DNA of 64,000 nucleotides from Desulfobulbus propionicus (GTDB taxonomy: Bacteria > Desulfobacterota > Desulfobulbia > Desulfobulbales > Desulfobulbaceae), in assembly GCA_002748755.1 (NCBI GenBank), contig PDTD01000013.1, positions 1 to 64,000 of the forward strand, given 5' to 3'. Positions 42,172 to 55,796 of this stretch are shown piece after piece (position 1 is the first letter of the stretch; every line of letters starts with the position of its first letter). The notes beneath the pieces are model-generated. The model saw only the letters and a list, made by a program, of their open reading frames with translations, had not been told where the DNA came from and made no database searches. The position numbers were made by a program, and so were the translations under genes.

Positions 42172-42561
42172 ATGGGTACAACAAAAGATTTGACCACAAC
42201 CCCTGAACACAAAACTGTGCCCCAGCGAGGCCGGTTACCAGTGACGACTCCCGCTGTTGACATCTATGAAAACCAGGATACAATCTTGGTGTACGCCGAG
42301 ATGCCAGGGGTCCAGAAAGAAGACATCATGGTCCACATCGACCACGGCAGGCTGTTTGTTGCAGGAGAACGCAGGGCTGCGCCTGGCGATACCGCGACCT
42401 GGGAGGAGTTCGGCGCCACAGAGTTCCGCCGGGCCTTTTCCATTCCCCAAACCATTGATGTGGACAAGGTAGAGGCCCATTTCAAGGACGGCATCCTGGA
42501 GCTGCACCTGGCAAAGTCTGCTGCAGCCAAGCGCAGGCAGATAGCGATCCAGAACGGCTGA
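42172..42561 (+). CDS. Small heat shock protein, Hsp20 family (second of pair)
   Basis: A 129-residue holdase. The alpha-crystallin domain runs from VDIYENQDTILVYAEMPGVQKEDIMVHIDHGRLFVAGERR to FRRAFSIPQTIDVDKVEAHFKDGILELHLAKSAAAKRRQIAIQNG. The start at 42172 follows AAGGAGA with normal spacing; an in-frame ATG at 42136 has none. Two divergent Hsp20 genes in tandem are common in Desulfobacterota and often form mixed oligomers, which is inference here. Confidence 0.92.
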   Translation: MGTTKDLTTTPEHKTVPQRGRLPVTTPAVDIYENQDTILVYAEMPGVQKEDIMVHIDHGRLFVAGERRAAPGDTATWEEFGATEFRRAFSIPQTIDVDKVEAHFKDGILELHLAKSAAAKRRQIAIQNG

Positions 42562-54243: not shown

Positions 54244-55407
54244 TCAGATGCCAGAACGCCTTTTTTTCCATTGCTCCCTGACCCAGGGTCTGACAATCAG
54301 GACCAACAAAACCACTGCTGATCCCGTGTACAGTATGCCATGGGCACCCTGGGGGTCTGATTGCACCCACCCAGCGATACTGAGCCCCATGCTGTAATAC
54401 ATTCCATTGATAAGCAGGCCCAGGAAGAGAGAGCAAAGGATGATGGAGACGACATAGACCATGGCTGCCCTCCTGCCAAGCAACTTGGCCACCACGGTGA
54501 CGGTAGCCACATTGGTCGCCGGTCCTGCCAGCAGAAAAACCATAGCAGCTCCCGGCGAAACTCCTTTCAGGGCAAGGGCTGCTGCTATAGGGGTCGAGGC
54601 GGTGGCGCAGACATACAGCGGGGCTGCCAGGGCAACCATGACGAGCATGGAAAATATACCATCACCCAGGTAGTTTCGGATAAAGTCCGGCGAGACAAAC
54701 ACGGTTATTATTGCAGCCAGGATAACACCGAACAAAAGCCAGGGGCCTATATCAGAAAGCAGGTTGCCAAAAGAAAAGTCCATCCCTTTTTTCAGCTTGG
54801 CCCACGTCTTTTCCAGCCTTTGTTTCGTTCTGCTCCCTCCATCAGCCTGCTCTTGATCTTCTTGTGGTGCAGCACTGGAAACAGAGGCCATGGGAAGAAC
54901 AGTCCCCTTCCAGGGAGACGATTTTCCCGCTGACTCCTGCCTCTGCTTGCGATCAAAGACATTGACCAGCAGACCTGTGGTGAGGGCAGTCAAAAAAGCC
55001 GACACCGGCCTGGCAATGGTCATAACAGGATCCAGCAAGGCATAGGTGACCGCAATGGAATCAACTCCTGTTTCTGGAGTGGAAATCATAAAGGAGGTGA
55101 CCGCCCCTTTGCTGGCCTTTTGTTGCCGCAGACCTGCGGCTGCGGGGATAACCCCACAGCTTCACAACGGTATGGGGACACCGAACAACGAGGCTTTGAG
55201 AATGCCGGTTTTCTTCCTGCCTCCCAGGTGTTTTTCAATAAAATCACCAGGAATAAATGCCTTTAACAAGCCGGCGATCAGAAAACCGAACAAGATAAAC
55301 ACAGACGATGCCACCATAATATCCCAAAAGGAGAGCAGAGTGTGAACAAATGCGCCACCAATATTTCCCATTATATCACCTTGTCCGGGACGAGCGTACA
55401 GGCTCAT
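54244..55407 (-). CDS. Selenocysteine-containing metal/arsenic-type efflux permease
   Basis: One continuous 388-codon frame interrupted only by TGA at codon 82 (55164-55162). Read through, it gives a 387-residue inner-membrane permease of the DUF318/SO_0444-like kind, with about eight to ten hydrophobic segments. The TGA sits in GVPIPL-U-SCGVIPAAAGL, where relatives have CSCG, so Sec (U) would replace the first Cys of a likely metal-binding C-S-C motif. Next come ASKGAVTSFMISTPETGVDSIAVTYALLDP, a charged cytoplasmic loop, and a second half with APLYVCATASTPIAAALALKGVSPGAAMVFLLAGPATN. A bacterial SECIS-like hairpin follows the TGA. Start 55407 has AGGGGG upstream; 55371 is an alternative. It is 44 bp downstream of arsR. 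The substrate (Cu, Zn or As) is inferred from family and regulator. Confidence 0.85.
55125..55164 (-). promoter_or_regulatory. Sec codon and SECIS-like hairpin in the permease mRNA
   Basis: The TGA (55164-55162) is followed after 27 nt by the apical loop of a hairpin. Its stem is GCCGCA (55140-55135 in mRNA order), loop GGTC (55134-55131) and TGCGGC (55130-55125). The GCA-GGTC-TGC core is identical to the E. coli fdhF SECIS tip as I remember it. The bulged U of fdhF is absent. The distance lies inside the 16-37 nt range usual for bacterial SECIS elements. Confidence 0.8.
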
Positions 55408-55451: not shown

Positions 55452-55796
55452 CTAGCATATCCCCTGAATATGTTCTAGACCATCACGCAACAATTCACGG
55501 ACATGATCATCATCCAAAGAATAATAGACATGTTTTCCCTTTTTTCTTGATTTGACGACCCTGGCAGCTCGAAGCACCCTAAGTTGATGTGACACGGCCG
55601 GTTGTTTCATCTTCAGTATACTTTCAAGATCACAGACACACAGTTCCTTGAGATAAAGAGCCGAAAGTATCCTCAGCCGACTCACCTCACCAAAAACCTT
55701 AAAAAAATCCGCCAACTCCAGGAGATCATTTTCCAGTGGCAGCTGCCTCCTGAGCGTGTCTGTATCCTTGTCTAGGCAGAACTCAAAACCTGTCAT
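55452..55796 (-). CDS. ArsR/SmtB-family metal-responsive repressor
   Basis: A 114-residue winged-helix repressor. It shows LADFFKVFGEVSRLRILSALYLKELCVCDLESILKMKQPAVSHQLRVLRAARVVKSRKKGKHVYYSLDDDHV. The ELCVCDL segment has the Cys-x-Cys site at the start of the DNA-recognition helix that senses As(III), Cd or Pb in ArsR/CadC/SmtB proteins. It is the first gene of the permease operon. A promoter with an overlapping palindrome lies directly upstream, which supports autoregulation with release by metal. The ligand metal is not determined. Confidence 0.92.
   Translation of the reverse strand: MTGFEFCLDKDTDTLRRQLPLENDLLELADFFKVFGEVSRLRILSALYLKELCVCDLESILKMKQPAVSHQLRVLRAARVVKSRKKGKHVYYSLDDDHVRELLRDGLEHIQGIC

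Follow-up and report, generated by a model that had tools for sequence, protein, structure and literature searches.

For the type member of the SO_0444 permease family, SO_0444 of Shewanella oneidensis, a role in Cu/Zn efflux has been proposed from mutant fitness, since growth under Zn or Cu stress depends on this protein (PMC3219624). A family member from Nitratiruptor belongs to a cluster that showed the strongest induction by Cd as well as by Cu (PMC10092412). The majority of prokaryotic selenoproteins known so far are considered to have a role in redox reactions (PMC9312934). In a 2026 review (PMC13188914) the SO_0444 family is counted among the Sec-containing transporters, and a table entry reads 'SO_0444 family Cu/Zn efflux transporter', with the family model NF033936, the motif UxC, the number 1, the protein WP_014809615.1 and the code GA (GenBank annotated). 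This review was the only paper returned by a literature search for NF033936. The words 'permease', 'efflux' and 'SO_0444' are absent from the main text of a 2022 review (PMC9312934), and nothing on the family was found in the accessible portions of PMC12013277, PMC8318568 and PMC1794560.

Here we describe a permease gene in a stretch of 64,000 nucleotides, the whole of which is called the window below. The original prediction for this gene suggested that its Sec site was undescribed, a suggestion that gives way to the entry in PMC13188914, where the selenoprotein form has the same family model (NF033936) and the same U-x-C motif; the window gene therefore adds one more member to a selenoprotein family already known. 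Our main reading, to which we give a probability of about 0.9, is that the gene encodes an SO_0444-family efflux permease for soft metals in its selenoprotein form, with UGA codon 82 decoded as Sec, and that it comes from a bacterium of the same genus as Desulfogranum marinum.

The permease gene and the Sec machinery of the genome

The features of the locus are as follows.

54244..55407, minus strand: SO_0444-family (ArsP_1) metal efflux permease, 387 aa with TGA codon 82 taken as Sec (NF033936, PF03773)
55162..55164, minus strand: in-frame TGA, codon 82, predicted Sec at the first Cys of an invariant C-S-C
55156..55158, minus strand: codon of Cys84, which pairs with Sec82 in U-S-C; no variation among the 66 aligned rows
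54607..54609, minus strand: codon of Cys267 in the second half (YVCATASTP), likewise without variation among the 66 aligned rows and perhaps a third ligand
55139..55160, minus strand: proximal hairpin GCUGUGGGG-UUAU-CCCCGCAGC, directly after the TGA and stronger than the GGUC hairpin
55125..55140, minus strand: GCCGCA-GGUC-UGCGGC, predicted apical hairpin of the SECIS, with its loop 27 nt after the TGA
55452..55796, minus strand: ArsR/SmtB metalloregulator, 44 nt upstream of the permease ORF on the same strand (NF033788, 97 bits, cut-off 55)

On the minus strand, an open reading frame of 81 aa (55407-55162) runs into a TGA at 55164-55162, after which the frame stays open to a TGA stop at 54246-54244. 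The read-through product is 387 aa long, the flanks of the TGA are GVPIPL-U-SCGVIPAAAGL, and the gene has no in-frame stop besides codon 82 and its end. The two same-frame halves joined by a single TGA are exactly as the original prediction had them, in coordinates as well as in flanks. A second in-frame ATG, at 55371, lies near the start of the relatives in alignment A1. A gene caller that takes the TGA as a stop would be expected to cut the permease at residue 81.

The read-through permease scores 437.8 bits against NF033936 (SO_0444 family Cu/Zn efflux transporter; cut-off 300, profile positions 1-349 of 351) and 160 bits against Pfam PF03773 (ArsP_1; cut-off 32.3). An alignment of 66 members, in which TGA is written as C, shows no variation in the columns C82, S83, C84 and C267, so that U82, C84 and C267 fall on invariant family columns, namely those of the CSCG motif and of a Cys in the second half (CATASTP). 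A profile search of the PDB with the family profile gave no matching solved structure at E up to 1.

In the window there are 85 pairs of ORFs linked by a TGA (at least 40 and 60 codons), three of which pass a filter for hairpin and overlap; among these three, the family-library search concerned the permease pair alone. At position 42559 on the plus strand, another TGA stands between open stretches of 195 and 68 codons and is followed by a hairpin of -6.5 kcal/mol, a combination that is probably due to chance.

As to the machinery for Sec insertion, the genome contains a tRNA-Sec with anticodon UCA, selA (599 bits) and selD (357 bits), the last with an in-frame TGA of its own. A search for sel genes had been named as a check on the original prediction, and it came out well for selA, selD and tRNA-Sec (selC) but not for selB, for which there is no match above the cut-off in the draft assembly (90.66% complete, 2.0 Mb, 44 contigs), whereas a search of 6 other genus members found selB in all of them. 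Three genus members of 100% completeness measure 4.8-5.8 Mb. In L066, from one of the other genus members, selB is preceded by a gene for which the window genome offers only a 29% match, and the assembly therefore probably lacks the selB region.

The FdhA model has no match in the genome, and SelD is therefore the only other Sec gene seen there. In selD (G000:C31:122022-122963, L016) the TGA is near the start (AAG-U-AAK), which we take to be the usual place of Sec in SelD. By eye, the hairpin AGGUCC-AGG-GGACCU follows, with the start of its loop 17 nt beyond the TGA; with both the in-frame TGA and the hairpin, SelD is itself a predicted selenoprotein.

Codon 82 and the RNA that follows it

Codon 82 was compared across 147 loci, which include the window and many loci chosen for having TGA. 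It is TGC in 53 of them, TGT in 56 and TGA in 38, with no other codon, and the site is accordingly Cys in all 109 loci that lack TGA there. The TGA form also occurs in L139, a MAG with the title Desulfopila aestuarii. An alignment of TGA with Cys codons in the relatives is what the original prediction had looked to, and its claim that Sec replaces the first Cys of C-S-C is supported by these counts together with the codon conservation described below. The 38 of 147 is not a frequency, because 32 loci were fetched for their TGA (17 new ones and 15 more, 4 of the latter with TGA only in the central loop); L048, which repeats L021, was left out of the count. In a less biased sample, codon 82 is TGA in 8 of 80 loci, although one of the two search patterns behind that sample specified Cys there.

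Two surveys covered larger groups. In the order (242 genomes, 185 above cut-off), at least 19 rows have one TGA, and no TAA or TAG was found among the matches listed above cut-off. In the phylum (395 genomes, 85 above cut-off), the above-cut-off match contains TGA in 16 genomes and TAA or TAG in none. For the 15 TGA genomes of the phylum survey other than that of the window, the TGA is at codon 82 in 11 and in the central loop only in 4.

These data bear on the simplest alternative, which is that a Cys codon was mutated to TGA or misread as TGA, leaving a broken gene. A single base separates TGC or TGT from TGA, and the genome is a draft assembly of 44 contigs. However, L021, from another genus and another genome, has the same TGA with conserved codons after it; the window gene has no other in-frame stop; and relatives above cut-off, among the matches listed, have TGA but no TAA or TAG. 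Given these independent relatives, a pseudogene or sequencing error is largely refuted and we regard it as very unlikely. Truncating mutations elsewhere in the relatives, which would have counted against the original prediction, were not seen in the 147 loci: stops outside the two TGA sites occur in L084, L099, L104, L114 and L159, and all of these are at gene ends.

Two hairpins that overlap by 2 nt follow the TGA in the window; the proximal one, absent from the original prediction, is the stronger and lies between the TGA and the GGUC loop. The more distal one, GCCGCA-GGUC-UGCGGC at 55140-55125, has its loop 27 nt after the TGA, just as originally described; its GCAGGUCUGC tip is, we believe, the same as that of the E. 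coli fdhF SECIS. In a 44-nt fold the two hairpins stand side by side, while the minimum-energy folds of 55, 60 and 71 nt are without the GGUC hairpin, those of 55 and 71 nt having the proximal hairpin only. The sequence of the GGUC hairpin is the same in the window and in L021, and in L082 it has one more base pair, whereas for the proximal hairpin the outer stem is, by eye, not preserved in L082. Hairpin strength by itself was rejected as proof of Sec, since 28 of the 387 codons of the window gene precede a hairpin at least as good by the scoring rule described below.

Conservation of the codons after the TGA was measured as the number of identical codons at sites of identical amino acid, over 13 codons. 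Between the window and L021, which belongs to a different genus within the family, is 62% identical in protein and likewise has TGA at codon 82, 12 of 13 codons are identical, compared with 93 of 216 elsewhere (Fisher p 0.0007), and no other of the 358 13-codon windows is more alike. Between the window and L082, from another family of the phylum, the numbers are 9 of 10 and 55 of 166 (p 0.0005), with 2 of 286 codon windows more alike. The Cys copies of the window's own genus, L018 and L020, share only 2 of 11 and 4 of 13 codons with it in the same region.

Under a scoring rule modelled on bSECIS features, the best hairpin after codon 82 has a median of -11.9 kcal/mol over the 37 TGA copies, compared with -3.2 for the 108 Cys copies (Mann-Whitney p 5e-16, without correction for relatedness), although a hairpin of -6 kcal/mol is also reached in 32% of the Cys copies. 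For 26 of the 37 TGA copies the best hairpin is 17 nt after the TGA and is mostly UGCUGCC-GGC-GGCAGCA or a close variant, unlike the GGUC loop of the window at 27 nt; the remaining copies have other hairpin types, and the hairpin of L149 is weak by the scoring rule. The scan, like the tree described below, used 145 rows, from which the duplicates L096 (= L018) and L162 (= L084) were dropped and in which the identical pair L036/L134 was retained. The hairpin, the codon conservation and the contrast between TGA and Cys copies all point to a SECIS-like hairpin shortly after the TGA, despite the longer folds that lack the GGUC hairpin. Three points go beyond chance: the position of the TGA on an invariant Cys, the recurrence of the TGA in relatives, and the conservation of codons after the TGA among Sec copies, which Cys copies do not share.

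A still less probable alternative is that translation stops at the TGA and that the second half is made as a separate polypeptide. There is an ORF of 281 aa from ATG 55089 that could encode it, and in the phylum survey many weaker matches (about 100-140 bits) run through one or two TAA, TAG or TGA; these low-scoring relatives are possibly tandem half-size permease genes rather than selenoproteins. In the window gene, though, the break is within the invariant CSCG motif and not between the halves, a start at ATG 55089 would drop the 24 codons after the TGA, including that of the invariant Cys84, and the codon conservation after the TGA fits recoding. The least probable alternative, insertion of another amino acid such as Trp or general stop read-through, has nothing specific in its favour and is hard to reconcile with a gene that itself ends in TGA, with Cys at the site in every non-TGA locus, and with the presence of tRNA-Sec(UCA). 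Pseudogene, sequencing error, split gene and Trp recoding were all rejected, and Sec at codon 82 is the reading that we retain.

Sec/Cys switching and a second TGA site

When codon 82 is masked, a quick tree of the 145 rows joins the window and L021 as sisters (97), and the pair adjoins Cys copies of the window's genus, including that of Desulfogranum marinum DSM 2058 (L018 = L096). The U/C label changes at least 13 times on the tree, 7 of the changes being forced by starred branches, which merit lower trust in a quick tree with long branches; the direction of the changes cannot be told from the tree. Sec and Cys have switched repeatedly in the family, at least seven times on this quick tree.

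The loop between the two halves of the permease often bears Cys in the family. In the window protein this central loop (54799-54960) has no Cys, and in L018, L020 and L021 Cys is kept. In 8 relatives (L076, L077, L079, L080, L082, L105, L143 and L175) the central loop contains an in-frame TGA, in the context GCG-U-P in L076, L077, L079 and L080 and U-GCA in L143 and L175; L082 has both TGA sites, that in the membrane motif and that in the loop. L163, a close kin of L143 and L175, has Cys aligned with the loop TGA, and in L104 and L110, which are related to L076, ICC or CCC is close by. L077, L079 and L080 are from one family and are therefore not independent; G621, of the same family, has no TGA.

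A hairpin is found 18-23 nt after the loop TGA in 7 of the 8 relatives, L105 being weak by the scoring rule. Some of these hairpins are ordinary for their gene, equally good ones following 40 of 328 codons in L076, 55 of 356 in L143 and 29 of 311 in L175. Since this loop is what connects the two halves, a genuine stop that separates two half proteins is a serious alternative here. Our tentative proposal, for which we would give slightly less than even odds, is that Sec occurs at two places in the SO_0444 family, the membrane U-S-C and a Cys cluster in the loop, and that it serves on a path of capture and transfer as a metal ligand, repeatedly acquired and lost, rather than as a redox catalyst. 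We found no literature report of a central-loop Sec site, in searches not aimed specifically at that site.

Probable metal function and comparison with known systems

The regulator gene upstream of the permease on the same strand bears out the original claim of an ArsR-type neighbour (NF033788, 97 bits). Its product contains ELCVCDL and DDDHVRELLRDGLEHI, which presumably resemble metal sites of the ArsR/SmtB family. A same-strand ArsR match is present in 97 of the 147 loci and in 27 of the 38 TGA loci, some loci possibly being too short to include one.

A plausible scenario is that ArsR keeps the gene pair repressed until Zn, Cu, Cd or a similar metal builds up. UGA codon 82 would then be decoded as Sec under the direction of the RNA structure just downstream, giving one membrane protein of 387 residues. 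Sec82, Cys84 and perhaps Cys267 would form a soft-metal site through which the ion would pass outward. Sec is more acidic and softer than Cys, and it would be expected to bind soft metals well in a sulfide-rich anaerobe. The metal specificity and the ligand role of the permease are suggested by relatives and motifs; Sec may, as the original prediction had it, act as a tighter or redox-active ligand. If Sec replaces an invariant Cys at the likely metal site of a transporter, this would suggest that Sec can act as a metal ligand, a role that could be tested by exchanging a single residue between the natural Sec and Cys forms.

Two other permease families offer points of comparison. SaoE (NF040736) is a related family and, as we understand it, a member of a selenocysteine-assisted organometal system; the window permease scores 190.4 bits in the profile search, below the SaoE cut-off of 325 bits. 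ArsP permeases, which have an organoarsenic role, have the PF03773 domain in common with the window permease (160 bits), for which NF033936 gives the higher score.

SO_0444 of Shewanella, the type member, we assume to be a Cys protein. Its neighbour is a putative ZntR ortholog (PMC3219624), whereas the neighbour of the window permease is of the ArsR type. In the accessible text of PMC13188914, the family appears as a table line and in one text mention, without the GGUC hairpin type that the window has in common with L021 and L082; also absent from that text are the repeated changes between U and C and the proposed second site of Sec. The selenoprotein form of the SO_0444 family, which in PMC13188914 is an annotation entry only, gains comparative support from the present analysis.
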